DNA of 64,000 bases from Myxococcales bacterium (GCA_016191815.1 JACPVI010000080.1:62001-126000), one strand, 5' to 3'; shown: positions 4,832-29,600, counted from the first letter of the stretch. The notes: a model not told the origin generated them from the letters alone. Translations and numbers: made by a program.

Positions 4832-5632
4832 TCAGCGCATCACGTGCTCGCGAAGGTTGATGTCGAAGATGTGGTAGGTGCTCCAGCCAGGGAAGTAGAC
4901 GATCCCCCGGTATGAGATGACTAGCAGGGCAAACACGAACAGACACCATCCAGCCAGCCGCTTGCCCTTCCAGCCGGCGAACAGGTGCATGTGCATCACT
5001 GCGCCGTAGGCGAGCCAGGCGATCAAGCCGAGGATCTCGATCGGGTCGAAGCTCCAAGCCTTGCCGAACAGCAGGAACTTGTAGAAGGAGCCGGAGGCCA
5101 TCATCGCCGAGTGGAGGATGAAGCCCACCTCCAGGGTGCGGGGAACGGCCAGTCCCGCCGCCTCCTCCCGCATCAACGCCCGCAGCGAAAGTCCCGCATT
5201 CAACGCGAGCGCCCCGAACGCGGCCCAGGCCACCACCGCATGCACGTCCACCACCCAAGATCGCTCGGAGATGGTCAGCGCGTAGGCCGTGCGGTCGTAG
5301 CCCAGGCCATGGGCGAGCAGGCCCCCCGCGATCGCGGCGGCGATCGGAGCCACGCCCAGCCGGAGCTTGGCTCGAACCTCCCAGGCGGCGCCGGCGAGGA
5401 GCACCGCGACGGCGAGCGAGAGCGCGCTCTCGTACGTCCCGAAGATCGGAAGGTGGCCCGCAAAGACCCACCGGGCCACCCAGGCGGCCACGGCCAGCGC
5501 GCACAGCGGCAGGCAAGCCCCGAGGACGAGGCGCGAGAGCCCCGAGCCGCGCCGCCGCCACGTCAAGAGCCCCGCCAGAGCGACCACCGCGCACGCCACC
5601 GCCAGCACCCGGTAGAGCGCCTCATCGAGCAT
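4832..5632 (-). CDS. ccsA: CcsA-type cytochrome c maturation protein, second copy
   Basis: The 266-residue polytopic membrane protein has a CcsA/CcmC-type tryptophan-rich haem-handling motif, here [18 protein letters not shown], with conserved-type histidines before and after it ([21 protein letters not shown] and the C-terminal YHIFDIN). About eight membrane spans are apparent. In System II, CcsA presents reduced haem together with ResB for attachment to apocytochrome cysteines outside the membrane. The ATG at 5632 shares one base with the TGA of the resB gene in front (TGATG). The motif is less canonical than that of the first ccsA (WSFDP instead of WSWDP), so the two may differ in substrate. 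Confidence 0.88.
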
Positions 5633-6900
5633 CAGCGGCGCTCCTCCTGCTCGAGCAGCTCTCGTGGAGGCGCCGATCCTCGCCATCCGCGCAGGGTCCC
5701 CCCCACCCAGATCGCCTCTGCCCTCGGCCCACGCAGCTTCATCCAGAGCCCCAAGAGCGCCAGCGCGAACCCCACGAAGAGGATCGGCGCGCCCGCATCG
5801 TGCACCAGCGAGAATTCTCCCCAGTAGCGGATCTCCGGGAACCGCACCGAGAGGCCTTCGAACTCGAAGTCCTCGCCGAGCCGCAGGAGCCGCTCCCCCA
5901 GGTCCAGCTTTCCCCGGAAGAGGTGAACGCGGATGGCCGGGTTCGCGAGGTTGAGCGAGCGGATGACCGGCTCCGCGCCCTTGGGATCCAGGTCGGGGAT
6001 CACCTCCACGTACGCGCGGTGCGGAGCGCGCTGGGGCCTGAAGAAGTCCCGCTGCCCGGGCGGAAAGACGTTCATCTTCACCACCGCGGTCTCGAGGAGC
6101 CGGCCCTGGCCGTCCCGAAGCTCGTAGCGCGGCGCATAGCCGAACCCGGACAGCCTGAGGAAGGTGCCAAAGCCGGTCCAGAGCGGGCGGTTGATGCGCG
6201 TTCGAGCCTCTCGGCCGTCGGGGAAGCGCACGCGCGCCTCGAGCGAGGTGAAGAGAAGCTGATCGCGCCAGAATTCGGGTGAGACCTCCTCCACGCTCAG
6301 GCGCGGGGGCGCAGGCCCAAGGCCATACGCGTCCAGACCGCTCCGGGAGAGGACCTGCTCCTCGGCGAAGGTGAGCTCCTCGCCGACCGCCGCCCAGGTC
6401 TTGATCTCCCCGCGACAAGCCATCGAGCCGAGGAACCCGAGCGCGATGAGGAAGAAGGACCCGTGAAAGAGGAAGGTCCCCAAGGCGGAGAAGCGCCTTC
6501 TCGTCCCGTAGGCCGAGCCATCGGGCCGCGCCCATGAGGAGTACCCGAGGCGGCGGAGCGTCGCCCGTGCGGCGGCGGCGGAGGCAATCGGGGCCGGGCA
6601 CTCCCAGTCGGGCTTCCCCGGTGCGACCGGCTCGCGGCCGATCTCCCGCGCAAGCGACGGGAGCCGCTTCCACAGGCACCAGGCCGCGTTCACCAAGAGC
6701 AGAAGGTACGCGGCCCAGAAGGGGGCGAGCTGGGCGATGTTCCTCACCACTTGGGAGGGTGAGGTGTACGACCAGCCGGCCAAGAGCACGTAGTAGAGGA
6801 TCGCCGCCACCATCACCACGACCGACGTCTTCCAGGAAGACAAGAGCCGGCCCGCGCCGGGCAACACGCCTCGGAGGGCGAGCTGGAAATCAGCCCACAT
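5632..6900 (-). CDS. resB: ResB-like cytochrome c maturation protein, second copy
   Basis: The 422-residue membrane protein shows two N-terminal spans (about 23-45 and 60-78), a third with the ResB-type histidine in FLFHGSFFLIALGF, a large periplasmic beta-rich region (about 165-375) and a final span PILFVGFALALLGLWM. This is the topology of ResB/Ccs1, the System II partner of CcsA. It overlaps the upstream ccsA by 11 bases and is followed by its own ccsA by a TGATG overlap. The N-terminus is longer than in the first ResB, and the sequence is quite diverged. Confidence 0.85.
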   Translation of the reverse strand: MWADFQLALRGVLPGAGRLLSSWKTSVVVMVAAILYYVLLAGWSYTSPSQVVRNIAQLAPFWAAYLLLLVNAAWCLWKRLPSLAREIGREPVAPGKPDWECPAPIASAAAARATLRRLGYSSWARPDGSAYGTRRRFSALGTFLFHGSFFLIALGFLGSMACRGEIKTWAAVGEELTFAEEQVLSRSGLDAYGLGPAPPRLSVEEVSPEFWRDQLLFTSLEARVRFPDGREARTRINRPLWTGFGTFLRLSGFGYAPRYELRDGQGRLLETAVVKMNVFPPGQRDFFRPQRAPHRAYVEVIPDLDPKGAEPVIRSLNLANPAIRVHLFRGKLDLGERLLRLGEDFEFEGLSVRFPEIRYWGEFSLVHDAGAPILFVGFALALLGLWMKLRGPRAEAIWVGGTLRGWRGSAPPRELLEQEERR

Positions 6901-7702
6901 TGAAGGTGTGGGCGGTCGCGGTCATCACCAGATTCACGCCCCAGTAGGTCATCAGCACGGTGATGATCGCGAAGACCAGCACCCATGCCAGCCGGCGGCC
7001 CCGCCAGCGGAGCGTGGCGCGAAGGTGGAGGGCCAGCCCGTAGGTGAGCCAGCTCAAGAGCGACCAGGTCTCCACCGGGTCCCAGCTCCAGTAGGAGCCC
7101 CACAGCTTCTTGGCCCAGATCGCCCCGCCGGCGATCATCCCCGCGTCGGTGATGAAGCCGAACACGGTGGAGCGAAACATCAGCTCCTCCAGGCGGGCAA
7201 GCGCCTGGGGCGGGGGATTCTGTCCCCGGCGGCTCTTGGCGAGGTAGACCACCCCCGCACCGCAGGCCACCGTGAAGGCCCCGTAGGCGAGCCAGGCGAA
7301 GAAGACGTGGATGTACATCCAGAACGATTGCAGCGAGGCCACCAGGGGGCCCGCTCTGGTGTCCGACACCCCGCCCCAACCGAGGATCACCAGGGCAAAG
7401 GGCAGCGCTCCGGCGGCGAGGAGCGGGTGCCGCTGCTTCCACCCCGCCCACAGCGTCATCGCCACGATGAACCAGCCGCCCGAGAGCGCGTTCTCGAACG
7501 TGCCCATGGTGGGCACATGGCCGGTGGAGATCCACCGCCAGGCCAACAGAGCGGTGTGCAGCGCGGCCCCGAAGAGCAGGCCGTAGCTGGCCCTGCTGTT
7601 CCAGGCGGGCCGCTGGAAGATCTGCCCGAACAGCTGCGCGGCCACCACCAGGGCGTAGACCACCAAGGTAGCCCAGAAGATCGCGGCGAACGGTGTGCTC
7701 AT
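6890..7702 (-). CDS. ccsA: CcsA-type cytochrome c maturation protein, first copy
   Basis: The 270-residue protein has about eight membrane helices and the canonical CcsA signature GSYWSWDPVETWSLLSWLTYG. Histidines in MYIHVFFAWLAYGAF, LALHLR and TATAHTF are expected haem ligands. It would work with the ResB encoded just upstream to attach haem to exported CxxCH proteins, such as those encoded further up this window. ATG at 7702 overlaps the resB stop by four bases (ATGA). An alternative extended N-terminus is not needed, because the family starts with a short leader before the first span. Confidence 0.92.
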   Translation of the reverse strand: MSTPFAAIFWATLVVYALVVAAQLFGQIFQRPAWNSRASYGLLFGAALHTALLAWRWISTGHVPTMGTFENALSGGWFIVAMTLWAGWKQRHPLLAAGALPFALVILGWGGVSDTRAGPLVASLQSFWMYIHVFFAWLAYGAFTVACGAGVVYLAKSRRGQNPPPQALARLEELMFRSTVFGFITDAGMIAGGAIWAKKLWGSYWSWDPVETWSLLSWLTYGLALHLRATLRWRGRRLAWVLVFAIITVLMTYWGVNLVMTATAHTFNVG

Positions 7703-9051
7703 GCGGCGGCTCCCGGCTCCTTGGCCCCGCGCGAGAGGAGCAGCTCGCCGATGGTCTTTAGCTCCTCGCGGAACCGAAGGGGAAAGTACTCGGTGCGGCC
7801 GCAGAGGGTCATCCCTCGCTCGTCGAAGACCACGCCCACCTCTCGCCGGTGCCAGACCATGCGGAAGGTGATGCCTAGCACCGCCAGCAGGAATCCGGCG
7901 ATCAACAGCGCGCCTCCCCGCTCCTGGATCAGCCGGAGGAACACCCAGTAGCGGACCTCCTCCAGCGCGAGGAAGTGCTCTCCCACGCGCACGACTTGCC
8001 CCGGGCGAAGCTGGCCATCGAAGAGCAGCTCCCGCTTGCGCTCGACCCGGACCTTGACCGCGAAAGTCGCAAGCTGCTCGCGCATGGGAAAGTCCGGGCC
8101 CACCTCGACCGGCTGGACGGCGACGTCGATCTCGTCCTGGTCGAGTCGAACTCCTGATGGCCGGCCCTCGGAGTTGAACATGGCGACCACGCTGAAGCGC
8201 TGGACGATGAAGCCCCTCCCGTCCTGGAGCCGGAAGACCGGCGCCAGCCCGGCCCGCTCCACCAGCACGGAGAGCCCTCCCCACTCCGCCGGGCGGTTGA
8301 TCCACGCCGTCTGCGGCGGGCCCGCCCCGGGCTCCTCTAGCTGAAGCACGGCGCCGAGTTGGATCGGGCGTCCACCCTCGAGCTTCGGGTCGACACGGAT
8401 GAGCCGAATGCGCTCGGGCCGCGGCTCGCCGAGCGGGGAGTGGCGCGACACCTGGCCTTCGATGCTGGAGAAGGCCTGCCCCTCGGTGGCCACCGTCGCC
8501 ACCGCGTGTCGCGTGTAGTAGATGGCCACGCCCCCGGCGCAGAGCACGAAGAAGCTCAGGTGAAAGAGGGGGAAGCCGAGGAGGGCGAGCCGGTTCTTCA
8601 CGCCCCAGACGCATCCCGGCCCCGGTCGGACCGCGCGATAGCCCAGGGCCTCGAGCACCGCTGTCGCACGCGCGGGCTCCATCCCCTCGGGCAGCGGAAA
8701 CGAGACGGCCTGCGGACCTTCCGCCAAGGTCCCAAGCTGCGCCACGGTGGGGGGATGGGCCGAAAGCCTGAGCCAGGTGGTCCGCGCGCGGTCGCTCAGC
8801 ACGCAAGCCAGATTGAGGAAGAAGAGCGCCAAGGCGGAAAGGAAGATCGGGCTTCTCGACAGCCGGCCCAGCTCCAGCGTCTCGAGGAAGAAATGGCTCA
8901 GCGCGTTCCTGGACGCCAGCTCCGCGTAGACCTCCGCGGGGGTGGTCGCCTCCTGAGGAACGACCACGTTCAGCAGGAGCAGCCCCGCCAGCACCGCCAG
9001 CACCAAGGCGGTGGTGCGCATCGAGGTCATCAGAGCCCAGGCCCGGCGCAC
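7699..9051 (-). CDS. resB: ResB-like cytochrome c maturation protein, first copy
   Basis: The 450-residue protein has spans near residues 11-30 and 70-88, a third containing the characteristic histidine (FPLFHLSFFVLCAGG), a periplasmic domain of about 200 residues and a C-terminal span LLIAGFLLAVLGI, matching ResB/Ccs1. Start choice: GTG at 9051 lies directly after the stop of the upstream gene, while ATG at 9030 would remove seven residues; both keep the first membrane span. It is coupled to ccsA by an ATGA overlap. Role: holding and reducing apocytochrome and receiving haem with CcsA. Confidence 0.9.
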   Translation of the reverse strand: MRRAWALMTSMRTTALVLAVLAGLLLLNVVVPQEATTPAEVYAELASRNALSHFFLETLELGRLSRSPIFLSALALFFLNLACVLSDRARTTWLRLSAHPPTVAQLGTLAEGPQAVSFPLPEGMEPARATAVLEALGYRAVRPGPGCVWGVKNRLALLGFPLFHLSFFVLCAGGVAIYYTRHAVATVATEGQAFSSIEGQVSRHSPLGEPRPERIRLIRVDPKLEGGRPIQLGAVLQLEEPGAGPPQTAWINRPAEWGGLSVLVERAGLAPVFRLQDGRGFIVQRFSVVAMFNSEGRPSGVRLDQDEIDVAVQPVEVGPDFPMREQLATFAVKVRVERKRELLFDGQLRPGQVVRVGEHFLALEEVRYWVFLRLIQERGGALLIAGFLLAVLGITFRMVWHRREVGVVFDERGMTLCGRTEYFPLRFREELKTIGELLLSRGAKEPGAAA

Positions 9052-9612
9052 TCAGCCGCTCCGCTCGCCATCGGCGAGCTGCCAAGCGTGGATGCGCCAG
9101 CTCGACCCTTCTCGCCGCACCATGTACTTGACCTGGACCTCCTGGGCGCGGACCGGCGCGAGAAGCCCTCCGTCCAGGAGATCGGCGAGGCGGAACACCC
9201 AGTGCTCGCGGGTGCGGACCTCCACCAAGCCCTCCCCCAATTCGCGCGCGTCGACCACCTCGAGGCTGAGCAGCACGGCGTCCTGCCGGCGGAGCGAGTG
9301 CTGCAGGTAGGCGATGTCGGCGAGCATCTCCTGCCCCACCTCGTCCGAGGCGGGAAGCCTTTGCGCGAAGCGGCGGTCTCCCCCACTGGAGTAGAGATGC
9401 CGGGCCACCGCGTTGAATACCCGGACCGCGTCTATAGCACCGGCGGTGTCGCCACCCGCCGACTGGCCGGGGGGAGGCGGTGATCTCGGGAGGAAGGGAC
9501 GCACCACCGTGTCCCATTCCTCTATTGCCGCGGCCAACATGAAGAAGAGGAAAGCACCCAAGAGTATCTTGAGCACGCCCTTCACCGCCGCCGACCTACG
9601 CGCATGATCCAC
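9052..9612 (-). CDS. membrane-anchored protein of unknown function in the ccs operon
   Basis: The 186-residue protein has one N-terminal membrane helix (about 11-29, ILLGAFLFFMLAAAI), a Pro/Gly linker, then a soluble domain. The latter ends in alternating beta strands (VDARELGEGLVEVRTREHWVF and SWRIHAWQLADGE) that look like an NTF2-like or IMS-type fold. I do not recognise a family. The GTG start at 9612 lies three bases after the stop of the PIN toxin gene, and its stop abuts the resB start, so it is part of the maturation operon. It may be an extracytoplasmic accessory factor for cytochrome assembly, inferred from context only. Confidence 0.72.
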   Translation of the reverse strand: MDHARRSAAVKGVLKILLGAFLFFMLAAAIEEWDTVVRPFLPRSPPPPGQSAGGDTAGAIDAVRVFNAVARHLYSSGGDRRFAQRLPASDEVGQEMLADIAYLQHSLRRQDAVLLSLEVVDARELGEGLVEVRTREHWVFRLADLLDGGLLAPVRAQEVQVKYMVRREGSSWRIHAWQLADGERSG

Positions 9613-9615
9613 TGC

Positions 9616-10020
9616 CTACGCGAATGGGTTGAAAACCGAAACCCCCAGCCCATCGAAATGGCCGGTGTTCCGCGTCGCCACGATCGACCCGCTGATCTGA
9701 GCGGTGGCGGCCACCAGGAGATCCTCGAGCGACCGCGGCCGGCCTTGACGCTCCACCACCCCCCTGAGCCGCCCCGCCGCTCGAGCCACCGCCGTGTCGA
9801 TCGGGACCACCCGCACCGCCGGCGAGGCGAGCAGCGCCTCGAACCACTGCTGGAGGAGCTTCCGCCTTTGCTCAGTCGACCGCTCCACCCCGAATTCGAT
9901 CTCCATCAGCGAGACCACGCTCACTGACAGCGCCTCCTGCCCCGCCAGCCAGGCGGTGACGCGGGGTGAGGGGCGCTTGCGGGTCGGCTCGCACAGGACG
10001 TTGGTGTCCACCAGAAACAT
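9616..10020 (-). CDS. vapC: PIN-domain (VapC-like) ribonuclease toxin
   Basis: The 134-residue protein begins MFLVDTNVLCEPTR and contains the PIN acidic residues: Asp5, the conserved Glu of VVSLMEIEFGVERS, the Asp in SLEDLLVAATA and a late ATRNTGHFDGLGV motif. It is a full-length VapC/FitB-type RNase expected to cut tRNA or other RNA when not held by its antitoxin. The ATG overlaps the antitoxin stop (TGATG). Unusually, the gene directly downstream starts three bases later and leads into the cytochrome maturation genes, so the toxin pair appears to head that operon. Confidence 0.9.
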   Translation of the reverse strand: MFLVDTNVLCEPTRKRPSPRVTAWLAGQEALSVSVVSLMEIEFGVERSTEQRRKLLQQWFEALLASPAVRVVPIDTAVARAAGRLRGVVERQGRPRSLEDLLVAATAQISGSIVATRNTGHFDGLGVSVFNPFA

Positions 10021-10310
10021 CAGCGCCCTCGGCCGAAGGGATCGCCACGCCCGGAGCGGGGCACCCGCCGGGGCGCTCGAAGCTCCAGCTCCCCCTCGCG
10101 CTTGAGCTCCTCGGTCTTGGCCAGCCACGCGGCGATCGCTCCCGGACCGCGCTCGGCCGCGCGTTCCTTGAGCTGCGAGTACTCCTCGACGGGCAGGACC
10201 ACCGCGATGGGCTTGCCGCGGCTCTCGATGACCTGCGGGGCCTCGCGGGAGCGCACCAGGACTTCCGAGAACTTGGCCTTCGCTTCTGCCACGCTCCAAT
10301 TCATGACCAT
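10020..10310 (-). CDS. Phd/YefM-family antitoxin
   Basis: The 96-residue protein has the Phd/YefM N-terminal fold signature (WSVAEAKAKFSEVLVRSREAPQ, then RGKPIAVVLPVEEY), with a basic, disordered C-terminus that would wrap the toxin. It neutralises the adjacent PIN toxin and should repress its own promoter. Two starts are possible: ATG at 10310 or ATG at 10304 (Met-Asn-Trp); the family usually starts close to the Trp-Ser-Val segment, so the second may be used. Repeats just upstream look like its operator. Confidence 0.9.
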   Translation of the reverse strand: MVMNWSVAEAKAKFSEVLVRSREAPQVIESRGKPIAVVLPVEEYSQLKERAAERGPGAIAAWLAKTEELKREGELELRAPRRVPRSGRGDPFGRGR

Positions 10311-10419: not shown

Positions 10420-11496
10420 TCAGCCCCGCCGCGCTCTTTGGCGCGCCTGGACTCCGAGCAGGAGCAGGGCCCACAGAGGAGCCGGCGCCACCTGGCACCC
10501 GCACGAGCCCAGGACCGGGTCGGCGGAGGACACCGGCTCGAGGCCTGGACCTTCCACGCGGGGAGCTCCGGCTCCACCCGGCGCCTCGGTCCCCACTGGC
10601 GGCTCCGCCCCGGCATCGGCCGCGCACGCCTCCCCTTCGTCCGTCGTGCCATCGCAGTCGTCGTCGCGCCCGTTGCAGCGCTCGAGCTCGGGCTGTGCCG
10701 CCTGCGCACAGGTGTGCACCCCGCCGTCGCCGCAGTGGAGCACTCCCGCCGCGCAGGCCCCGCTCTCGCCGGTGTCGCAGGGACCGAGGCCTCCGTCGGG
10801 CTCGACCGCCTGGCAGCCGCCCCAGGCCTCCCAGCTGCAATCGGTGCGGCACGCGCGGCTCTCCACCCCGCAGTCGCCGCAGGCCAGCGACTCTTTCTTC
10901 CCGGGGCTGCAGACGCCCTGCGCCGAGCACGTCCCCCACGCGCCCCACTGGCCGTCCTTCCCGCAGCCTCGCGTCTGCTGCCCGCAGTTGCCGCAGCTCT
11001 GCGTCTGGGTGTCACCCGGCCGGCACTGAATGGTGCCGGTGCGGACGATGAAGCCCCCGGTGAACGAGGCCGTGGAGTACGTCGCCGAGCGCGTGCCGTA
11101 GTTGCCCCAGCAGTTCTGCTCGGTGACGGTCACCTGGCTCGTCGAGAAGCCCGTCACCCACGCCACGTGCCCGTACGTGCCGCTCGCGTTGCAGGCGATG
11201 CTGCTCGTCACCGGGTACGAGAGCGCGTCGTACGAGGGGTGGCTCTTCGCGTTGCCCGCCCACTGGTTGGCGTTGCCCCAGCCGGGCAGCGCCACCTTCC
11301 AGCTGCAGCAGGCCGAGTCCCACGCGGACCAGGTGCAGTTGCCGCCGTTGTCGCAGCAGGGATAGGGGTTGTTGCCGCCGCAGGGGCAGTCGTCTTTCCT
11401 ATCGCCGCACTGGTACACCGCCTGCGCGGGGGCGGCCCACAGCGCCGCGGCGAGCGAAGCGGCCAGCACCAGCCAGCGGCGCCTTTGGGGGCTCAT
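10420..11496 (-). CDS. secreted CHAP-domain protein with MYXO-CTERM-like sorting tail
   Basis: The 358-residue protein has a signal peptide (to about AQA at 26) and a CHAP amidase/peptidase domain at about 30-150. The domain contains the catalytic-type Cys in GNCTWSAWD, His in GHVAWVTG and an Asn/Glu segment TEQNCWGNYG. A Cys-rich stretch with TSP-like CGNCGQQTRGCGKDGQWGAW repeats follows, then a MopE-like motif RCNGRDDDCDGTTDEGEAC. The C-terminus is SCGC, hydrophobic LWALLLLG, then RQRARRG, matching the layout of the MYXO-CTERM signal. It is probably exported, cell-surface anchored or released, and may cleave peptidoglycan. The ATG overlaps the preceding gene by four bases. Confidence 0.88.
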   Translation of the reverse strand: MSPQRRRWLVLAASLAAALWAAPAQAVYQCGDRKDDCPCGGNNPYPCCDNGGNCTWSAWDSACCSWKVALPGWGNANQWAGNAKSHPSYDALSYPVTSSIACNASGTYGHVAWVTGFSTSQVTVTEQNCWGNYGTRSATYSTASFTGGFIVRTGTIQCRPGDTQTQSCGNCGQQTRGCGKDGQWGAWGTCSAQGVCSPGKKESLACGDCGVESRACRTDCSWEAWGGCQAVEPDGGLGPCDTGESGACAAGVLHCGDGGVHTCAQAAQPELERCNGRDDDCDGTTDEGEACAADAGAEPPVGTEAPGGAGAPRVEGPGLEPVSSADPVLGSCGCQVAPAPLWALLLLGVQARQRARRG

Positions 11497-12147: not shown

Positions 12148-13131
12148 TCAACTCACCTGAGACCGGCGCCTCCGGAAGGTGGCGACCAGCCCCAAGAGGC
12201 CGACCGCGGCGGCCAGCGCTCCCAAGAGCACCACCTCTCGATAGTTGCGGCGGGTGAAGTCGATCTCCGACCACCGGCCCAGCCCGGCGAAGCCGACTCG
12301 ATAGCCCCCTTCCAGCTCCACGAAGTGGCCGAGGGTGAGCTCGCCGTGCCCCAGCCCCTTTTCGCCCTGCCGGACTTGCACCCTGAGCACGGGGTGGCCC
12401 TTCATCCGCTCATCGAGCGAGGAGATGTCCAGCGCGCCTTCGACCTGCAGGCCTTCGCGCTCGATGGCCAGCTCACCGCTGAAGGTGAGCGCGCCATTCC
12501 CCTGGGGCAGGGTGCGGAACGGCACCGGCTGATCGAAGAGCTTGGCGCCGGATTTCTCGACCACGATGCGCGGGGCGAAACCGAAGGCGCCCTGGTAGAA
12601 GCGGAGCCGGCCCTCGCCACCGACCTGGGAGTGATCCACCTCCAGCTTCGTCGGCGTGCTCGCGCCGGGCCTGAGCAGTTGGAGCTTGCTGCGCGGATAA
12701 AAGAGGCCGCCTTCGGCCGGCAACAGCTCCAGCTTCTCGAGCGCGATCGTCATCTCCAGCTCTTGAGGCCAGGCCAGTGGCCCGAGGCGGAGCTCCAGCG
12801 CGTGGTGGCGATCTCCCAGGGGGACCGGCTCCCGCTCGAAGAGGATGATCGCTCCGCGAATCTGGAGGACCCAGTTGGCGAGCCCGCCCGCGCCGACTGC
12901 GACGAGACCGCCCAAGAGGAGCAGCTTGGCCCCTCCCCGCGCCGGCCGCTCCGTTTTTCGGCCCAGGGAAACGGCGACCAGGCTGGCGTTCAAGAGGAGC
13001 AGCGCCAGGGCGCCGCCGACCAGCGCGGCGAGCACCTCCGGGTGCGAGGGGAGCCAGTCCCGCCTCATGGCGAACCAGTACGCCACCGAGAGGGCGATCA
13101 GCGCGGCCGGGCCGAGCTTGAGCCACCGCAT
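12148..13131 (-). CDS. membrane protein of ResB-like topology, unknown function
   Basis: The 327-residue protein has three N-terminal membrane spans (about 7-25, 34-56 and 71-90), a beta-rich extracytoplasmic domain (about 95-285) and one C-terminal span (VVLLGALAAAVGLLGLVATF). This topology, and the final RWSEIDFTRRNYRE segment before the last span, recall ResB/Ccs1, but the family histidine in span three is not evident. It may be a divergent ResB relative that helps cytochrome assembly; this is an inference. The ATG at 13131 lies five bases after the stop of the spermidine-synthase-like gene. Confidence 0.7.
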   Translation of the reverse strand: MRWLKLGPAALIALSVAYWFAMRRDWLPSHPEVLAALVGGALALLLLNASLVAVSLGRKTERPARGGAKLLLLGGLVAVGAGGLANWVLQIRGAIILFEREPVPLGDRHHALELRLGPLAWPQELEMTIALEKLELLPAEGGLFYPRSKLQLLRPGASTPTKLEVDHSQVGGEGRLRFYQGAFGFAPRIVVEKSGAKLFDQPVPFRTLPQGNGALTFSGELAIEREGLQVEGALDISSLDERMKGHPVLRVQVRQGEKGLGHGELTLGHFVELEGGYRVGFAGLGRWSEIDFTRRNYREVVLLGALAAAVGLLGLVATFRRRRSQVS

Positions 13132-13135
13132 CGGG

Positions 13136-14833
13136 CTAGTGGTTCCGCTCTGTGGCGCGGCCGGGCTCACTCTGGGCTCCCTCTTCGACATGCTCGGCGA
13201 GGAGGTTTCTCGCCACATGCTCGGCGAGGAGGTTTCTCGCTACGCTGAACTCCAGAAGGGGCCGGTCGTCGGTGTTCAACTCTCCTGGCTCGCTGCGAAC
13301 GATCTGTTGGATCTCCTCGTCCCCGCGGGAGAGCACGAACTCGAGGGGAATCCCACGCCAGTTCATCGCCCGAGCCCTCGAGGCGATCTCCTGCGGGGAG
13401 CGGCGGAAGGGAGACTTGGAGCCGAGGAGGATCAGGTCCAAGGTCCCCGGCACCTTCCACAGCAAGGCGTGTGGGAACGAAGCGGTGAACGTCCGCAGCA
13501 TCATCGTCACATCGTCATTGTCCATGAAGTAGTACGGGAGCCACTGGCAGAAGACGCCTTCCTCCGGGAGGCGCTTGGCCGCAATCCCGTAGAACTCGCG
13601 CGTGAAGAGGTTGGCGGCCGCAGCATCGGTCGGGTAGGACGGCTCGGAGGTGATGACGTCCCAGGTCTCCGATGCGCGCATCAGCTCATTGCGCGCGTCG
13701 TTCAACCGGATGCCCACGCCGTCCAGCACTCCCGGGGGGCCAAACCGGCGCACCGCCTCGACCACCCCGGGGTTGATCTCGATGAGGTCGACGCTCCTCC
13801 CGCTTTCCCTTGCTGCCGCGAGTGTCACTCCGGCCCCGAGGCCGATGACCAGCACTCGCGGCGGCTCGGGCAGGGCCGAGACGGGCAGGTAGGCAAGCAA
13901 GAGCGTATTCTGCACGTCCCGGACCGAAGTGCCCTCCGGCTTGCCGCCGACCTGGACGATCAGATTCCCCGCCTCGGCCCGCAAGGCCCTCACCGAGCCT
14001 TCCGCGTAATGCCGCTCGGATAGCTCGGACACCGCCCGTCGTTCTCCCGCCTCTATCTCCCGAAGAGAACCAGTCCGCAGGTGGCGGTACGCGCTGTAGT
14101 AGCTCACCGTGCGCGGAGGCTCCCCGGCGGCGAGCGCCCAGGCGGCGGCAGGAAGGAAGGCGGCGGCGAGGATCAGGACCGAGGCCCGTCGGCCCGCTCG
14201 GGCCGCGGCGGTCATGGTCACCCCCACCAGGAGATTTAGCGCTCCGGCGGCGATCACCGCCCCCGTGAGCCCAGCGGTGGGGATGAGCACGAAACCCCCC
14301 AGCACCGATCCGAACACGGCACCGACGGTGTTCAGTGTGTAGGCGGCGCCCACCCGCGAGCCCATTCGCTCGAGAGAAGTCGTGGTCGCCCGGCTGACCA
14401 GCGGGAAGGTGGCGCCCATCAGCGTCGTGGGAAGCAGCATCACCAGCACGCACAGCGCCATCTGCGCACAGAAGAAGAGCACCGGGATGCCGTGGAGGGC
14501 ACGAAACAGGGCGAGGTACGCTCCCGGAAGGGAGTGGATCAGCGGCACGCTGACGATTCCGGCGACGGCGATCCCCAGCTCGCACAGCCCGAACGCGAGG
14601 ACCAGGTTTCCACCGCGGTCCGCTCGCCGTCCGCCGAGGTGGGCCCCGAGGGCCAGTCCGCCCAGGAAGGTGGCGAGCATCGTGGAGACTGCGTAGGTCG
14701 TGCTGCCAAGGACAAGCGACAGCGCTCGCGTCCAGGTGACCTCGTAGATGAGCGAGGAGGCGCCCGAGACGAGGAACGCCGGCAACAGCAGGCGCGCGCC
14801 CGCACCACGCTCGTCTGGCGCAGTGATTCCCAT
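13136..14833 (-). CDS. membrane protein fused to spermidine synthase-like domain
   Basis: The 565-residue protein has about seven membrane spans in its first 250 residues (starting LLLPAFLVSGASSLIYEVTWTR, typical of fused MFS/spermidine synthase-like proteins). A Rossmann methyltransferase-like domain follows, with VLVIGLGAGVTLAAARE, an acidic strand DLIEINPGV and a later DVITSEPSYP. The polyamine-binding residues cannot be confirmed. Members of this group often occur in delta-proteobacterial multihaem cytochrome loci, and the substrate is unknown. Near the C-terminus the nonapeptide ARNLLAEHV is present twice in tandem because of a 27-bp duplication. Confidence 0.82.
   Translation of the reverse strand: MGITAPDERGAGARLLLPAFLVSGASSLIYEVTWTRALSLVLGSTTYAVSTMLATFLGGLALGAHLGGRRADRGGNLVLAFGLCELGIAVAGIVSVPLIHSLPGAYLALFRALHGIPVLFFCAQMALCVLVMLLPTTLMGATFPLVSRATTTSLERMGSRVGAAYTLNTVGAVFGSVLGGFVLIPTAGLTGAVIAAGALNLLVGVTMTAAARAGRRASVLILAAAFLPAAAWALAAGEPPRTVSYYSAYRHLRTGSLREIEAGERRAVSELSERHYAEGSVRALRAEAGNLIVQVGGKPEGTSVRDVQNTLLLAYLPVSALPEPPRVLVIGLGAGVTLAAARESGRSVDLIEINPGVVEAVRRFGPPGVLDGVGIRLNDARNELMRASETWDVITSEPSYPTDAAAANLFTREFYGIAAKRLPEEGVFCQWLPYYFMDNDDVTMMLRTFTASFPHALLWKVPGTLDLILLGSKSPFRRSPQEIASRARAMNWRGIPLEFVLSRGDEEIQQIVRSEPGELNTDDRPLLEFSVARNLLAEHVARNLLAEHVEEGAQSEPGRATERNH
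13188..13241. repeat. 27-bp tandem duplication inside the spermidine synthase-like gene
   Basis: Bases 13188-13214 and 13215-13241 are identical except for the last base. The repeat is an exact multiple of three, so the reading frame is kept and ARNLLAEHV is doubled near the C-terminus. The near identity suggests a recent slippage event. Confidence 0.9.
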
Positions 14834-17011: not shown

Positions 17012-20000
17012 TCAATACTGCAGTGGCCGCGTCATCGGGTCTGTGGAACTGGGGCTCACACCGGAGCCACCGTGCTTGACGCACCCGCCGAAGTTGTCGG
17101 CGTCGGTGCCGGACTTGTCGGAGTACACCGTCCAGCAGGTCCCGGGGCCATTCCAGTTGGTGGCCGGAATGTAGTACCTCATGCTGTTGCCGTTCATGAA
17201 CCGGTACGCCTGCCGGGTCCCGCTCCCCCCCGCTTGCCCCGTGTTGATGATCTGGCTGGTCCCGTGGATGGTGCCGAACTGCGGCGTCGGATCGCTCGGA
17301 CCCCCTGCCTCTTTGCCGCCGCCGTGGCAATTCCCGCAAGCGAAGCCGTAGATGTTGCCAGACGGTGCAGCCGCGGTGGTCCGATTCGTGCCATTGCTGG
17401 TGCCGGTGTCGTACCAGTTGGACGCATTTCCCGAGTGGCCTGCCCCCGGTGTGTAGCCCGCGCTCGTGCTGTCCGAATGGCAGCGGTAGCACACATAGGT
17501 GGGGCGGTAGCCCTTGTCGACGGCGGCTTCGGCGGTGCCGCCAGCGTTGTCCTTGAGCATGTACTCGGTGTTCGAGCCGTGCGCGTTCCCGAGGACGCCG
17601 TTGGCCCCGTCCACGGTGTGGCAGTCGGCGCAGCCCATCACCGCGTTCGAGCCCCAGAGGCTGGTGTTCATCCAGTACGTGGAATTATCCCAGAGGGAGG
17701 TCTGCAGCCCCCCGTAGACCGACGGCGCCATGTTGAAGTACGTGCCGGTGGTCGCCGGCGGGCGAATCGCATGCCGTGAGTAGACTCCCTCGGGCGGGTC
17801 GTAGCGGGTATCCGTGCCTCGCGGCTCGGAGGACAGGTCTCGGTAGGTCTGGGCGTAGGCCGCCCCGCTGGGCGGGCCGTTGCTCCAGGCGCTCGCCACC
17901 CGAGAGGCGATGTCGACGACCCGGCCGTTGGTCGCATACCCGCCGTCCGGGGCCGCCCGAACTACCTGGTCGTAGTTGTTGATGATCTTGTTGTCGTTGA
18001 ACGGGTTGAGCGAATTGCCCCCGTCAACCCAGAAGCCGCGGGCGCCGTTGAAGTCGTGGCAGGACAGGCAGAACGGATCGAGGTTGTCCCGGGTCTGCTC
18101 CACCCAGGTCGCGTTCTGGCTGCCCCAGCCGGCGACGTTGCCCCACGGGGTGGGGTTGCTCTGGATGGAGGCGGTGATGCAGTCGGTCTCGCACTGGGCC
18201 TGCGTCTTCCCGCCCGCCTTGCACACCTCGACGCAGACCTTTCCCTTGTTGAAGTAGAAGACGCCGCCGTCATCGACGTTGCGCAGGTTGATGCAGTGGC
18301 CGCCGTCGCAGCCGCCCTCGTTGTGGTAGGACGTGGTGTTGGGGTTCCCCTGGGCGTCGATGGTCCCCTCGGCGTGGCAGACGATGCAATCGTCGTAGGT
18401 GAGCGTCCCCTGCAGGGTGTTGGTGCTGCCGCTGCCCACGTGGTGGGAGCGGAAGCCGTCGGTGGTGCCGGCGTCCAGGTCGCGGAAGTCGCCGTCCGCC
18501 GAGGCGAGGGCGCGGCGCTTGCCGCCCTGGATGTTGGAGTGGCAACCAGAGCAGTTGCCTCCGGCCGGCGTGAACGCCTTGTTGGAAACCTGGCTGTGCT
18601 TGTGGCACGACTCGGTGCACCGGGTGCCCTGGTTGTGGGGGGGATTCTCGGGCGGCCAACCGTCGGTTTGCCGGAAGCGGGCGGTGTTCCAGTGGCAGAC
18701 CTGGCAGACGCCCCGGTACGTCCCGCCAGTCTGGGTGCTGATCACGTAGTCCTCCCAATCGAAGGCGGCCAGGTCTCCGCCTCGTGCCTTGCGGAAGTCG
18801 GGAGCGGGAGCGAACTGAATGGGGATGCCGTCGCCACCTCCGTCGTGCAGCTGCGTCGGCCGCTCCTGGATCATGTACCCGAGCCGCACGGAGGAGCCGT
18901 AGTTGTAGTCGCCATGCGGGTCGTGGCAGTCCCAGCAGAACCGACCGGCTGAGCCGCCGTCCGCCGCGGAGTGATCGTCGCCGAAGTGATAGGAGTTGAT
19001 CTTCACGGTGACGCCGGTGCTGACATCGCTGATCCCGCAGACCGCTCCGCTCGCGGTGGAGCTGTGGCACTGCAAGCACGCCCCGTTCTTCCCGTCCGAG
19101 CCGCCGACGTTAGACAGACGGAAGTAGTTGGTGGAGTCGCCGTGGTTGACGCTGGCGCTGTGGCAGCAGAGGCAGCCGTTGCCGCTGCTGCGGTTGTCCA
19201 GGTTGGCCATCGCGTTGCCGGACTCGACGTAGGCGCCGCCGTCGCGCCCGTGGCCGTACAGCCCCCAGTCCTCCGCGTCGATCACCGCCGCGGTGCCGGT
19301 GCCCGTGTTGAACTTGTCGCTCCAGGTGAAGTCGTCGACGTCCTGGTTGCCGGCGCCGGAGGCGAGGTGGCAGTCGCGGCAGGTGGCCGAGGACTTGCCC
19401 CACTTGATGAGGCCGTTGTTGTGGCAGGCGGCGCTGCACTCCTTGGTGGTGTTGTTGTAGCTCGCGATGTAGGTGGTGTTGTTCACGTCGCGGCTGCCGT
19501 TCAGGTGGAAGGTCGGGTCGGTCCCGTTGATCGCCGCTCCCGTGCTGGTGGTCTTCTGATGGCACCTGGTGCAGGGGAAGCTCTGGGTGTCCACGTGCAT
19601 CTGGTGTGAGTTCGCGTCGATCGCGCCCTCGCCGCCGTTGGCGTAGTCGGGTCGCCCCGAGGAGGTACTTGGGCCGTGGCAGCCGTTGCACTCGAGGGTG
19701 GTGACCTGGTCCCACTCCGGAGCCCGGTACACGCGCACCGTGGGGTCCTGCCCCGAAGAGTGGCAGTAGACGGTGCAGGCCATGGTGCTGGTGTTGTAGG
19801 TGCCTCCGTCGGCGAAGACCACCGTGGACAGCCCGTTGTTGTGGTTGCCGTAGTTGGCGATTTGCTGGCTGGTGTTGTTCACCGTACTGCTGTGGCAGTC
19901 GTAGCAGACGCGATCGACACCGATGATGCCGGCGTTGTTGACGTGGTTGGTGTGCTTGCCACTCGACATCACCGGCCCCCCAGCGTCCACCGTGAAATTG

Positions 20001-23000
20001 TGGCACGACGAGCAAGTCTTGCTGGTGCCCCAGGCAATCGACGGCCCCGAGGTGTACGGCGCCGACTTGTCCTGGCCATCGGAGTGGCAATAGGTGTTCG
20101 AGCAGGTGCGGGTGGCGCCGCCGCCGTCGGCGTAGCCGCCGGAGTTGTTCACCCCGCTGCTGTCGAAGTACACGTCCTTCACGCCATTGGCGTGGTAACA
20201 CTTGTCGGCGATGCTGCTGCCGGTCGTGGTGGTGTTGATGTGGCAGCGCGGGCAGTTGAAGGCGTACTTGGTGGTGTCGGTGTGGATCTCGTGCGTGGGC
20301 GAGAGGGTGGTGGAGGGCGCCGCCTGCCCATGGCAGGAGGTGCAGGTCATCGTCTGGCCGCCCGCGGTCCAGGTCGGAATCGCGCCGCCGTTGGCGTAAG
20401 CATTGACCGCGCCAGGCCCGTACGGGTTCGCCCGGGAGTGGCAGTAGTTTTGGCAGGTCCCGTCGCTGTACTGGAACCACCTGCTGTTCGGCCCCTGCTC
20501 GGCGGTCGGCGACGAGCCGGCGTCGTAGTAGTTGCCCAGGTCCGAGCTGAGCAGGAACGTCAACTGCACCACGTATGGGTCGGCCTGCACCGCGCCCTTC
20601 GAGGCAGGCTCGCTCTGGTGGGTGGCGTTGTGGCACCTCACGCAGGGGTGGCTGTACAGCGTCGTGGTGCAGTTCGACGCCGTGCCTTGGTAGCTCATCT
20701 GGTCGGCAGGGAAGGGGTTCTCATCATGCTTGGGATGCTTGCCGATCGTCGGCGGGGCGTTGTGGCAGGAGTCGCATCGAGGCGGCGCGAAGCCGCTGTT
20801 GTGCAGGTGGCACTCGGTGCACCGGTCGTTGGGAGCATCGCTGGGCCGGCAACCGTTCGACGAGTTGTGCTTGTCGTCCTGGGTCTGGTTGTAGTGGGCC
20901 GGCAGGGTTGACCCGCCGTCGTAGGCGTGGCAGTTCCTGCACAGCCCGCCCACCACGTAGTCGCGGAAGTCCAGCTTGGTGCTGTCGGTGGTCGCGACCG
21001 TCGGAGGAGTGTTGCAATCTCCGCTGGCATTGCCGCCGATCGCCTTGTTGAACTCGATCGCGTTGGCGAACTTGGTGGGTAGCCCGGCGTCGTCGCTCTC
21101 CTGCCACGGCCGGCTGTGCAGCATGTAGAAGATGGGGCTCCCGCCGTCGCTCATGTCGCCGTGCGGCTCGTGGCAGTCCCAGCAGAACAGACCTCCCTTG
21201 TCGTGGTTGTTCGCCCCGCCGTGCTTGGTGCCGAAGTGGTTGCTGTCGACCTTCCGCGATGGGTTGATCAGAGCGTAGGCGGTGCCCGTCCCGTCGGGGT
21301 CATAGCCGCCGTTCGAGCTCTTGTGACACTGGAGGCAGACACCGATCTTCCCGTCCGGTCCGTCGGCGTTGGCGAGCCGGAAGTAGTTGGAGAGCTGGGT
21401 GTGGCCCACCTGGTCGGTGTGGCAGTACTTGCACCCGCGGTCCCCCAGCAGCGCGCCCTGGTCGTTGAAGTTGACCGGCGGATCGGGGTTGCCCGAGGGG
21501 AAGCCGCCTCCGTCGGGGATGCGGCCGTGCCCGTAGGTCACCCACTCGCCCTCGTCGATCCTGGCGCCCGCATCGTCGTCGGCGAAGTTGTCCAGGTCCC
21601 CGACACCCAGGTGGCACTCCGGGCAGCCGGTGGGCTTGAACCCCTTCTGGTGGGTGTGGCACTCGGTGCAGTCCTGGGTCCCGGCCGAGAGGGAGTAGTG
21701 GTTGTCGGTCCCTCCGTCGTTGCGCCAGCGTGGGGTGCCGTCGAGGTTCTGGGTGCGCGTGTGGCAGACCTGACAGGGGCCGGTGTTGTCCGGGTTGACG
21801 TAGCTGAACGTCCCTCCGTCGCCGGCCCCCTCCCGGCTCCAGAACTTGACCACCCGCGCGGGCTGGTAGCTCGCCACCGGCGGGGGGGTGATCATCTTCC
21901 GGATGAGGAAGATGTTGGTGGTGCTGTGCGGGGTGTGGCAGTCGCGGCAGCCGACCGCCCAGGCGCCGTACCTGCCGCTGATGTTGGCGCTGGAGTGGGC
22001 CTTCACCGCGTGGCAGTCGAGACAGAACTGGCTCGAGTTGTCCCGCCGGAGCAAGGTGCCGCCGCCCCTCCTCTCCGCGTTCACCACCACCGCGGCCGGC
22101 GAGGAGCGCACGGTGGTGGTCCCGTCGAACGCCTCGGCCACGAAGGTGTAGGAGCCCGGGTTGCGGTTGATCACCTTCTCGAAGACGCGGCTGATGGAGG
22201 TGTCGTGGTTGGTATTCGCGGTCAGGTTCTCCCAGGTGCCGCCGTTGTCGGTGCTGATCCTCGCGCTCAGGCCCGCCACTCCGTCGGTGTCGTTGACCTG
22301 CACCTGCACCAGGAAGTTCGGCCCGGTGACCGAGGCGCCGCTGAACGGGTTGATGATCGCCGCCGCCGGGGAGTTCGCCTCGGTGGCGCCGCCGTCGACG
22401 TTGCCCGCGAGTGCGCCCGCGCCCATGGAGAAAGAATTGCCGCTGATCGGGCCGCCGAGCTTGGTGGAGGTGGCCTGGGTCTTCACGTCGGCAGCGGAGA
22501 CCTTCATCACGAAGGTCCGGCCCACGGTGGCGCCGGTGGACGCGGCGAGCTCGACGCGGACCGTCTTCGGGCTGCCGGCCGGGACGGCGAGGGAGAGGCC
22601 CTTGAAGTCGTACAGCGCGCCCGTCCAGCCGGCGGTGCCCAAAAGGTTCCCGCTGGAGTCGTCGAAGAGCTGTAGGAAGGCCACGTCGTTGGCGGGCAGG
22701 GCCGTGTTGGGGTTGGGGTTCTCCACCCCGATGGAGGTGATGGTGATCGTCCCGGTGTTGGCGCTGAACTTCACCTTGCCGATCGACGCCGAGGCGCCGG
22801 CGTTGATGGTGGCGCCGGTGGGCTGCCCCGGAGCGTCAGGCGAGAGGAGCGACAGCTCCGGCGGGCACTGGGGCGTGGTGTACGGGTCGGAAAGGTCCTG
22901 TGGATCCGCGGGAGGAGTGACCACGCCATTCACGTCGGTGAAGTCCACCCGGTAGTAGTAGGTCGTGCTCTGCGCGGCGGTGGTGTCCTGGCAGACGCGC

Positions 23001-25558: not shown

Positions 25559-26691
25559 CAGGAGTCCTCGGTCTGCGAGTTGGAGTCAGCGCCATGCGGG
25601 TAGTGGCAGGTCATGCAGCGGACCAAGCCGTTCGGGTCGAGCCTCAGGTCGTTGTGCCCCTTGCTGTCGCCGCCGGCGTCCTGGGCCATCCCGTTCACAT
25701 CGAGGATGCTGCCGCCGTCGCGAATCGACGGCCCCGAGAGCGGAACGCCGACCGGGTGGCTGAACACGAAGCCCCCGTCGCCGCAGCACTCCACCATCCC
25801 CGCGTCCATCACCCGCTCGCGGTGGCACTCCTCGCAGAGCTGGCTCGCGTCGTTGCGGATCCGCAGCATCGGGTAGGAGAGGTAGAAGCGCCACTGGTCA
25901 CCCACCGCCATCGTCCCCGAGAAGCCGACCTTCACGTTCGAGGTCGGCGAATCGTTCAGCTCCACGTTGCTCGCGGCGGTGAGCTTCCCGGTGCTCACGG
26001 CCGAGTCCCAGGGGCCGCTGGGGAGAATCCACCCGAACCAGCTCCGGCCGTTGTCGTTGGAGAGGACGAACCGGGCGGTCCCCACTCCACCACCGGTGAC
26101 GACCTTGAGCTGGTAGGCCTTGGCGTTGGAGCCAGCCGCTGGCGTCTGGAGGGACAGCCGCGCGTCGGTGCCGGCATCGAAGCCCAACGGCGCGTTCCAG
26201 TCCCCCGCCGCATAGGAGGTGTACTGCGAGGCTCCCTGGGAGTTGAGGGTGGCGCCGTTGTGCTGGTCGTGGCAGACGGAGCAGGAGATCTTCCCGCCCT
26301 CGATGCGCTTTGACATCCTCAGGTCGAGCGGCGCCTTGGCGCCAAAGTCGGGGTTTTCGGCGACCGCGTCCCAGCGGTGCGACTTGCCCTGCGAGCCTGG
26401 CACTGCCTGATCGCCGCTGGTCCACGGGAAGCCAAAGATGCCGGTCCCCGCGTCGGCGCCGGGGCGGTTGACGTGGCAGCTCTGGCAGAGGTTGGCGTTG
26501 CCGGCCACCGAGGTGAGCGTCATCCCGGGCGCGTTGTGGAAGGTGTGGCAGCTCTTGCAGCTGAAATCGAGCTCGGTGCCCGCCCAGTGCGGCGGGTCCA
26601 TCGCCCACGAGGGAGAGGAGCGCACCGCGAAGGTGGCGAGGCCTGCCAGGGCGAAGAGGAACGCGGCGCGCAGCAGGAGGCGGGCGCTCAC
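25558..26691 (-). CDS. exported cytochrome c with five CxxCH motifs
   Basis: The 377-residue protein starts with a signal peptide (LLLRAAFLFALAGLATFAVRSSPSWA) and has five haem sites: CKSCH, CQSCH and CSVCH in the first 130 residues, then CEECH and CMTCH near the end, separated by a beta-rich insert of about 150 residues (TARFVLSNDNGRSWFGW). The haem arrangement recalls the doubled-CxxCH or NapC/NrfB-like small cytochromes. It is probably a periplasmic or outer-surface partner passing electrons to the giant cytochrome. The start is GTG at 26691, overlapping the preceding stop as GTGA; it is coupled to the next gene by TGATG. Asp-Ala-Gly and Asp-Gly-Gly triplets recur in loops. Confidence 0.88.
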   Translation of the reverse strand: MSARLLLRAAFLFALAGLATFAVRSSPSWAMDPPHWAGTELDFSCKSCHTFHNAPGMTLTSVAGNANLCQSCHVNRPGADAGTGIFGFPWTSGDQAVPGSQGKSHRWDAVAENPDFGAKAPLDLRMSKRIEGGKISCSVCHDQHNGATLNSQGASQYTSYAAGDWNAPLGFDAGTDARLSLQTPAAGSNAKAYQLKVVTGGGVGTARFVLSNDNGRSWFGWILPSGPWDSAVSTGKLTAASNVELNDSPTSNVKVGFSGTMAVGDQWRFYLSYPMLRIRNDASQLCEECHRERVMDAGMVECCGDGGFVFSHPVGVPLSGPSIRDGGSILDVNGMAQDAGGDSKGHNDLRLDPNGLVRCMTCHYPHGADSNSQTEDS

Positions 26692-29600
26692 GGCGAGGCA
26701 CCTCCGGATTTCGGGAAGACCGTCACGCCCACCGTCGCCGGGGCGCTCCGCACCTTTCCGTCGTCGACCACCAGCTCGAAGACGTACACGCCCGGGGTCC
26801 GCGGCTCGAACCGCGCCAGCGCGTCGTCCCAGTCGTCGATCCCCACCCAGGGCCCCGACACCTGCCGCCACCGGTAGCCGAGCAGCGCGCCGTCCGCGTC
26901 GGAGGAGGTGGTGCCGTCGAGCTCCACCTGCTTGTTGACCGTCGCTACCGAGGGCGCGGTCGCCCTGGCCACCGGCCGCGCGTCTCCGGCCGCGTCGGCG
27001 TCGACCCGGACGAAGACCGGAATGCTCTCGGCGCCCGTCTCGAAGACCGTCAGCTCGAAGACCGACGTTCCCGCGGCGAACGGAACCACCGTGGCGACTG
27101 CTCGATCAGCGTCGGTCAACCCCACCGCGGGGCCATAGACCTGCCGCCAGCGGTACTTCAGAGGATCGCTCCCGGCGGCGGTGCTCGCCCGCCCGTCCAG
27201 CTCGAGCGGAACCCCCACCAACCCGCTCAACAGCGAGCCGGCCGAGGCCACCGGCAGCGCCAGCTTAGCCTTCGAGACGAACACCGACACCTTGTCCGGC
27301 GGCGAGGAGAAGCCTCCGGCCGAGGCGACGACCTGGAGGTCGTAGCGGCCAGGCTTCGGCGCGACGAAGGACGGCCGGGAAGTCCCCGAGCCCGAGAGCG
27401 ATACGGTCGGTCCGCCCACCTGGGTCCAGGCGAACTGGAGGTTGCCGTTCGGCCCCACGCTGTCGGACGCATCCAGCGCCACCGTCTGGCCCTCGGCGGC
27501 GAACACCGGCGTCACCGCCAGCGCGGTCGGCGCCTGCTGCCCGGAGTTGACCACCACCACCGGCATCTCCGACGAGGCGGAGAGCCCCGCCGGGTCGGTG
27601 GCGGTGAGCTGGAACGAGAGGAGCCCCGGCTGCTTCGCGTGGACCGAGGCGGCCGGCGAGAGAGTGGTGCCGAGCAGCGCCGGGCCGAGCAGCTGATCCC
27701 ACTCGAGCGAAGGCGCTCCGCCGTTTGCGTCCCAGGAGAAGCCGCCCTCGAGCTGGAAGGACTTCCCCGCGTGGATCGCAGAGGGAGCGATCGCCACCTC
27801 GCGGGGCGCGACGTTGCGAATGGTGGCTACCAGCTCCGCCGGATCGCTCTGGAGGCCATTGCAGTCGGCCACCCCGGTGAACCGGTAGGTGTCCGCAGCG
27901 CGGCCCACGAAGCTCGGGGTGGTGGAGTTGCCCCCGCGCAGCACCACCGCCGGCCCTGCGTTCTGCGTCCAGCTCACCGAGCAGCTGCCGCGCCCCGAGA
28001 GCGTGGAGAACAGCTTCAAGAGCCCCGGGTCGCTCGTCACCGCCGAGCCGGCCACCAGGACCGGCTTGTGATCCAGCGGATCGAGCGGATCGAACCCGTC
28101 CCTGACCTCCTCGCCGTCCGAGTAGCCGTCGCCGTCGCTGTCGGCGCTGCCTGGGTTGGTGCCTCGCTTGTACTCGTCGCGGTTCGACAGCCCATCGCCG
28201 TCCTTGTCGCCGAATGCGTCGCGCGGATCCTCGGGGTTGAGCCCGTTGGCCTTCTCCCATGCGTCGGGCATCCCGTCGCAGTCGGAGTCGCCGGCGCAGC
28301 TCGGAAGCGGCGCTCCGGTGCCGAAGCGCTCGAGCTTGCCCGCATCCAGGTTCGCCACCAGGAGGTCGCCGTTCGAGAGCCAGGACAGACCCTTGGGTAG
28401 GCGGAGATCACCGTCGCCGGTCCCGAACTTGCCGATCTGCCCGACGTAGGCCCCCGCGGAGTCGAACACGCTCACCGCGCCCTGGAAGGTATCCGCCACG
28501 TGGACCTTTCCGCCTGCGCCCACCGTGACGCCCCCGCCGCGGGTGAGGCCCGAAGGTGGCGTCCCCCACGGCACTGCCGAGCGCAAGTGAGCCCCCGACA
28601 GGGAAAAGGCATGCAGCATCGAGCCCAGCTCGTTGCTGTCGAGGAGCACCCAGAGCGCGCCGGAGGCCACGTCCACCGCCACGTCCGCCGGCACCAGCAG
28701 CGCCGCGGTGCCCGCCGAGGTGAGCATGAAGTCGGTCGTGCCGTCAGGCTTCACCGCGCGCACACGGTTGACTTCCCGCTCGGCCACGAAGACTCGCCCG
28801 GTCGCCTCGTCGCAGGCCATGCCCACGGGCCAGGCCAGCGGGCCGTCGGCGAGCCCCACTTCTCCCAGTTGCCCGCCGTGCTCCGGATCCAGCCGGAGCA
28901 GCCGCCCGTCCTTGGTGGAGACGTGCACCGCCCCCTTGCAGTAGGCCACCGCGGTGGCGTGCTCGGCGGGGATCGGCGCCGCCATGATCTCCCCGCGGCG
29001 CGTGAGCAGCCAGAGCCGGCCGTCCGAGGAGTCGACCACGAACAGCTCGCCGGTGGGGGTGGCGGTCAGCCTCGAGGGCGCCCGGAAGGAGGCCCCGAGC
29101 GGGCCCTGCTGGAACTCCAGCTCCACGCTGATCGCCGCAGAGGCGGTGGCGGAAAGCCCGGTGGGATCGGTGGCGGTGAGCTTGATGGTCTGCGCGCCGG
29201 TGGTGGCCGGGGCGACCCAGGTCGCCTTGGTTCCGCTCGCCTGGAGCGTGCCGCCGGTGGCGGTCCAGGCGTAGGTCAACGCGTCTCCGTCAGGGTCGCT
29301 CGCCGCGGCGTCGAACAGCACCGTGCCACCCACCAGCACCGCGCTGGCCGACGGCGCGAAGGTGCTGATCACCGGCGGCTTTCCGAGCGGCGCCGAAACC
29401 ACCACGCTCACCGTCTTCTGACCGATGGCGTAGCCTCCGAACAGGCCGCCGTTGTCCTGCGCCTTGCAGGTGATCGAATAGGTCCCCGCCGCCGGGGTGG
29501 ACCAGGTCCAGGTGGAGGTCACCGTCTGCGCCGAGAGCACCGTGAGCGTCTGCCCGGTCAGCCCGTTCGGCAGAAGGCCGGCCGAGACTTCGATGCGCAT

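Follow-up and report, generated by a model that had tools for sequence, protein, structure and literature searches.

The window, i.e., the whole 64,000-nucleotide stretch analysed here, carries a run of four overlapping System II genes in which a canonical ResB-CcsA pair (ResB1-CcsA1, unit 1) is followed by a second pair (ResB2-CcsA2, unit 2) whose CcsA, although related to standard CcsA proteins, belongs to a type of its own. The reading we favour, with confidence that is about evenly balanced, is that these genes form a System II module dedicated to a giant multihaem cytochrome encoded in the same window, and that the divergent unit would work together with the canonical one. The features concerned are given below, with start codons being the likely ones as predicted.

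9051-7699, minus strand: ResB1, 450 aa (PF05140, 65 bits)
7702-6890, minus strand: CcsA1, canonical CcsA, 270 aa (PF01578, 120 bits; cut-off 29.9)
6900-5632, minus strand: ResB2, 422 aa (PF05140, 54 bits)
5632-4832, minus strand: CcsA2, divergent CcsA, 266 aa (PF01578, 57 bits)
9052-9612, minus strand: small anchored protein, 186 aa (family alignment and profile matches)
12148-13218, minus strand: ResB3, third ResB-like protein (hhalign to ResB profiles and predicted fold)
13136-14833, minus strand: fused MFS/spermidine-synthase-like protein (NCBIfam NF037959, 101 bits)
17012-25558, minus strand: giant multihaem cytochrome, 2848 aa (PF09698, PF14522; TIGR01904, 70 bits)
25558-26691, minus strand: pentahaem cytochrome beside the giant one (five CX2CH, PF09699)
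26688-29771, minus strand: PKD/NHL-repeat surface protein beside the cytochromes (Pfam)

Gene content of the block and of its genome

Pfam labels the four genes, in run order, as ResB, Cytochrom_C_asm, ResB, and Cytochrom_C_asm, and neighbouring genes overlap by 4 bases (ATGA, ResB1/CcsA1), 11 bases (CcsA1/ResB2), and 1 base (TGATG, ResB2/CcsA2); labels and junctions bear out the earlier note, which had described two contiguous, overlapping ResB-CcsA pairs in tandem. Sequence identity is 28% between the two CcsA proteins and 26% between the two ResB proteins, and the window CcsA and ResB proteins are 39 to 72% identical to their counterparts in other lineages. Against TIGR03144, CcsA1 scored 168 bits, which is under that model's own cut-off of 187.6.

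ResB3 was recognised by profile and structure comparison. Its family matched the ResB2 profile (hhalign, 97.4%, E 1.3e-11) and the ResB1 profile (94.2%), and its predicted structure aligned with the CcsB part of 7s9y with Z 11.0 and an rmsd of 5.1 over 211 residues, above the unrelated rows; it has a ResB fold, with a Pfam score of its own under the cut-off. TM-His2 is absent, with leucine in the window protein and the histidine missing in five of the six family members. The small anchored protein, for which the Pfam search gave no match and which by eye resembles NTF2/IMS, belongs to a family encoded ahead of ResB1, ResB2, or both in related loci of several phyla (profile matches beside ResB in L085, L086, L087, L089, L092, L094, L097, L098, L186, and L188), and homologues of the MFS-spermidine-synthase fusion adjoin the block in L085, L087, L088, L098, and L143. 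With these three block members of related genomes, the block in the window is larger than originally described. Here, ResB3 and the small protein are separated by other genes: a pair made up of a PIN-type toxin and a Phd-type antitoxin was seen by eye at 9616-10310, between ResB3 and the System II parts, and a CHAP-domain protein with a Cys-rich tail lies at 10420-11469, between the two block parts, while loci L092 and L188 are without the toxin-antitoxin interruption. As regards thiol partners of the CcsX/ResA and CcdA/DsbD kinds, a thioredoxin-like protein encoded at 31462-32115 was the only candidate seen in the window. In two other genomes, a B12-binding radical SAM protein adjoins paired CcsA genes (L097:5295-6791, a gammaproteobacterium; L101:4707-6167, a Bacillota bin).

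The window genome (6.77 Mb, 98.8% complete, 2.4% contamination) contains six Cytochrom_C_asm genes. Those outside the run were rejected as further System II pairs, being CcmC and CcmF of the Ccm cluster carried by contig C22 (CcmABCEFGHI, as judged from translations), a HemX-like gene beside hemA on contig C58, and a standalone anammox-type CcsA on contig C7. ResB1 and ResB2 are the only strong ResB matches, a third, weak match being located within the CcmF frame. The genome consequently holds a complete System I (Ccm) and two System II pairs. Across the phylum, CcmE was found in 113 of the 195 genomes, among them most genomes of the window's family, and ResB2 matches occur in seven of 195, one of these being G054, whose pair is canonical. 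For this family, a System II block is hence uncommon, and is most simply explained by a putative transfer. Elsewhere in the genome, a second PF09698 cytochrome (670-aa open frame) was noted on contig C55 at about 28600-29300. The one NrfA found (L105:906-2291, contig C63, preceded by an NrfH-like gene) carries CLNCH, i.e., CX2CH, at its active-site haem; a CX2CK lyase is accordingly not needed, and assignment of a window CcsA to NrfI with a CX2CK client was rejected.

Haem-site residues of the two CcsA types

In System II, the inner haem site is formed by TM-histidines of ResB and CcsA, and the outer site by periplasmic CcsA histidines together with the WWD region (PMC11322641). With CcsBA of Helicobacter hepaticus as the reference for residue numbers, CcsA1 possesses a complete WWD site in the region WAKKLWGSYWSWDPVETW, as well as P-His1, TM-His1, and P-His2 (histidines in the alignment columns of H761 and H858, P-His2 placed by within-family alignment), which places it among the System II CcsA proteins. 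CcsA2 likewise retains P-His1 (H131), TM-His1 (H214), and P-His2 (H254). ResB1 and ResB2 each combine a ResB domain with TM-His2, located in an FH motif (PLFHLSF and FLFHGSF, respectively) that matches H83 of H. hepaticus in the alignment, and all four haem-handling histidines are therefore present in both pairs.

The tryptophans of the CcsA2 outer site are largely replaced. Trp828 is Tyr, Trp833 and Trp839 are Phe, and Trp845 is Leu, so that a single tryptophan of five, Trp837, is left and the site is not tryptophan-rich; Asp840 and Glu843 are retained. The motifs WSWDP and WSFDP are as they had first been reported. In H. hepaticus CcsBA, Ala or Cys at positions 828, 833, and 843 abolishes function, and at positions 839 and 840 leaves less than 25% (PMC6299221); because Trp828 and Trp833 are essential in that protein, CcsA2 may be no synthetase. 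Its fold is nevertheless that of CcsA, as the predicted structure aligned with CcsBA (7s9y) with Z 26.3 and an rmsd of 2.3 over 254 residues. A PDB search with the CcsA2 sequence alone returned chance matches only, whereas CcsBA was matched once the family profile was used.

Compared with System II CcsBA and ResB-ResC (H. hepaticus 7s9y; Bacillus subtilis ResBC), the window proteins share the same ResB and CcsA folds, the TM-His and P-His pairs and, in CcsA1, the full WWD site, but differ in having two pairs per operon, a tryptophan-depleted second WWD region, a third ResB, and small anchored proteins. Anammox genomes also encode two CcsA-CcsB complexes, in the second of which the haem-binding motif is modified and CcsB is short (Ferousi 2013, PMC4222556). 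That motif, WGXXAWGXYFLWDAK(V/L)(V/L)W, retains Trp828, Trp833, and Trp839, however, and CcsA2 of the window does not fit it and represents a different type; the two Kuenenia pairs, moreover, are not adjacent, judging from their locus numbers, whereas the window pairs are. A near fit to the anammox motif is provided by the standalone CcsA-like paralogue on contig C7 (L012:5509-6294), which carries WGVLAWGAYFLWDPKVIW and whose type recurs in L166, L171, L172, L173, L176, and L177. Wolinella succinogenes resembles the window genome in having several System II enzymes (CcsA2, CcsA1, and NrfI) with different clients, NrfI being encoded in the operon of its own client, but Wolinella CcsA1 and CcsA2 carry WWXD (PMC6299221), unlike CcsA2 of the window, in a comparison made by description. 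The CcsA2 type was not found described in the open literature searched, nor were known relatives with this pairing of CcsA types.

Phylogeny and recurrence of the paired CcsA types

In the CcsA tree, the 15 sequences with Tyr828 and Phe, His, or Gln at position 833 group as a single clade (100/100), which is recovered again from the alignment stripped of its motif columns (100/99). A tree uniting both window CcsA proteins was rejected (p-AU 5e-11), which discards a recent tandem duplication; the two proteins thus do not cluster together in the phylogeny that had been proposed as a check, in agreement with the earlier claim that the pairs are diverged and not recently duplicated. An LTISE motif is a further mark of the CcsA2 type in the wider alignment, and many clade members retain Trp839. 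In a scan of named genomes, the type was found in at least seven phyla, with records from Acidobacteriota, Spirochaetota, Pseudomonadota, Nitrospirota, Actinomycetota, Bacillota, and Deltaproteobacteria/Myxococcota.

Within the set of 16 genomes with CcsA2 (the window genome, the scan genomes, and G163), a CcsA1-type gene lies no more than about 10 kb from CcsA2 in 13, in several phyla and varied gene orders (the window genome, G192, G165, G195 to G201, and G203 to G205), the surveyed genomes not being independent samples. As for the others, the CcsA1-type gene is on a different contig in G202, the two types are split in G163, and in G206, where CcsA2 sits at the end of a contig, no neighbouring CcsA1-type gene was seen; such absences are weak evidence because most CcsA2 genomes are metagenome bins. 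The four closest loci branch in the same order among the CcsA1 sequences of the tree as among its CcsA2 sequences, as would be expected if both genes had travelled together. The ResB tree is weakly resolved: a ResB2 clade (96/98) takes in 16 of 17 members, and perfect ResB1 and ResB2 clades were rejected, with ResB2 of L143 falling outside. In L089/L143, the ResB2 copies are without TM-His2, and no CcsA2-type gene was found in the 100% complete genome concerned (G087); this loss of the histidine from a ResB2 without CcsA2 fits ResB2 and CcsA2 being a working pair.

Further Myxococcota and one acidobacterium likewise have the block together with giant CX2CH/CX3-4CH cytochromes. In L085, from another Myxococcota family, the giant cytochrome, the spermidine-synthase fusion, ResB3, the small protein, ResB1, CcsA1, ResB2, and CcsA2 form one run, and L188/L091 of Candidatus Polarisedimenticola (Acidobacteriota) contains the same series except for the fusion, its CcsA1 being 70% identical to that of the window. 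The series from ResB3 to CcsA2 is unbroken in L092, and L086 has the order small protein, ResB1, CcsA1, small protein, ResB2, CcsA2. Variants without CcsA2 at the locus are found in L087 and L089/L143; the genome of L087, G163, has a CcsA2-type gene on another contig (L178), near homologues of the pentahaem cytochrome (25558) and the PKD/NHL-repeat protein (26688) of the window. Giant cytochromes with both motif classes adjoin the block in L085, L087, L089, and L091/L188, and these loci thereby support a physical tie between block and giant cytochrome in several lineages. Most relatives outside this close clade have no giant cytochrome nearby.

Possible roles of the second unit

We infer that the giant cytochrome, which contains 29 CX2CH, 4 CX3CH, and 1 CX4CH motifs, is the likely client of the System II block, and System I of the window genome could by itself mature it as well. 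A link between maturation genes and multihaem conduits is known from mtrCAB loci, where the linked machinery is System I (Ccm), while it is System II in the window; some of those genomes have both Systems, four mtrCAB-Ccm strains also carrying System II genes beside other cytochromes (PMC8805035). ResB and CcsB are likewise among the genes of Geobacter ppcA neighbourhoods (PMC11434368).

The earlier interpretation had combined an ancient divergence of the pairs and a link to giant cytochromes, both of which are supported, with a dedication of pair 2 to non-canonical motifs, for which support was not found. According to this explanation, the units would be motif-specialised isoenzymes, unit 1 for CX2CH and unit 2 for the CX3CH and CX4CH motifs of the giant cytochrome, as in the three Wolinella isoenzymes. 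Wolinella NrfI and CcsA1 do serve unusual motifs (PMC12285233; PMC6976685), the haem pocket of CcsA2 is altered, and five CX3-4CH motifs are present in the window protein and further ones in the homologous giants beside the block; the Wolinella client motifs, however, are CX2CK and CX15CH, and no CX2CK client is apparent in the window genome, given the CX2CH of its NrfA. PF09698, the domain with the CX4CH...CX2CH arrangement, offered a means of surveying the question. Every one of the six block-bearing Myxococcota has it, compared with 55 of 195 genomes overall (chance about 4e-4 by a simple draw calculated by hand, which ignores relatedness), but it is missing in 11 of the 12 CcsA2 genomes of the named scan, Polarisedimenticola being the only one to have it. 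Conversely, at least seven PF09698 genomes of Myxococcota possess System I (CcmE) and no ResB match (G003, G006, G017, G069, G076, G108, and G194), and in many genomes of family f5, PF09698 is found without a ResB2 match. Genomes can hence have CX4CH-type cytochromes and no System II, or CcsA2 and no CX4CH-type cytochromes. System I is able to handle CX4CH in tetrahaem cytochromes c3. Specialisation by motif is thus unlikely, and the presence of CcsA1 and CcsA2 together in most genomes suggests partners more than independent isoenzymes.

Alternatively, unit 2 might be a haem exporter or delivery channel that no longer attaches haem, a reading suggested by the TM-His and P-His pairs being kept while Trp828, Trp833, and Trp839, which are important for attachment, are replaced. 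Three of the replacements in CcsA2 are aromatic, however, Asp840 and Glu843 are kept, and Trp839 is retained in many clade members, so that the pocket may still work; we regard pure export as rather improbable. That two redundant pairs merely meet the need for about 30 haems in a single protein would suit the very large client and the intact core histidines of both pairs, but side-by-side, motif-distinct clades across phyla are unexpected for redundant copies, which makes a dosage effect very unlikely.

Joint action of the two units remains the most likely reading, at about even strength, because the two CcsA types are steadily paired; the neighbourhood itself is an association, not proof of cooperation. 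The module would comprise two non-equivalent haem channels, each ResB-CcsA pair presumably passing cytoplasmic haem to the TM-histidine site of ResB and CcsA and from there to the outer site. Unit 1, with the residues known from working synthetases, probably attaches haem to CX2CH sites. Unit 2 would hold haem in an outer pocket with Tyr, Phe, Phe, and Leu at positions 828, 833, 839, and 845, and most likely cooperates with unit 1 on a shared client, either supplying haem or serving as a second synthetase, rather than acting as an independent enzyme for a single unusual motif. For ResB3 and the small anchored protein, a subunit role as scaffold or in handling the client is probable.

How dozens of haem sites are filled in giant surface cytochromes is poorly understood, and the block represents System II genes kept with a likely client in a genome that already holds System I. 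We tentatively suggest, as a possibility well short of our preferred reading, that CcsA2 and ResB2 constitute a class of haem channel not described before, in which the outer site is depleted of tryptophan and which works only in partnership with canonical CcsA and ResB; System II of these bacteria would then be a machine with two channels, serving multihaem cytochromes of very large size. A naturally occurring CcsA that lacks most of the WWD tryptophans, and stands beside a standard CcsA in at least seven phyla, provides a direct test of the role of these tryptophans, and also of whether one System II enzyme can partner another.
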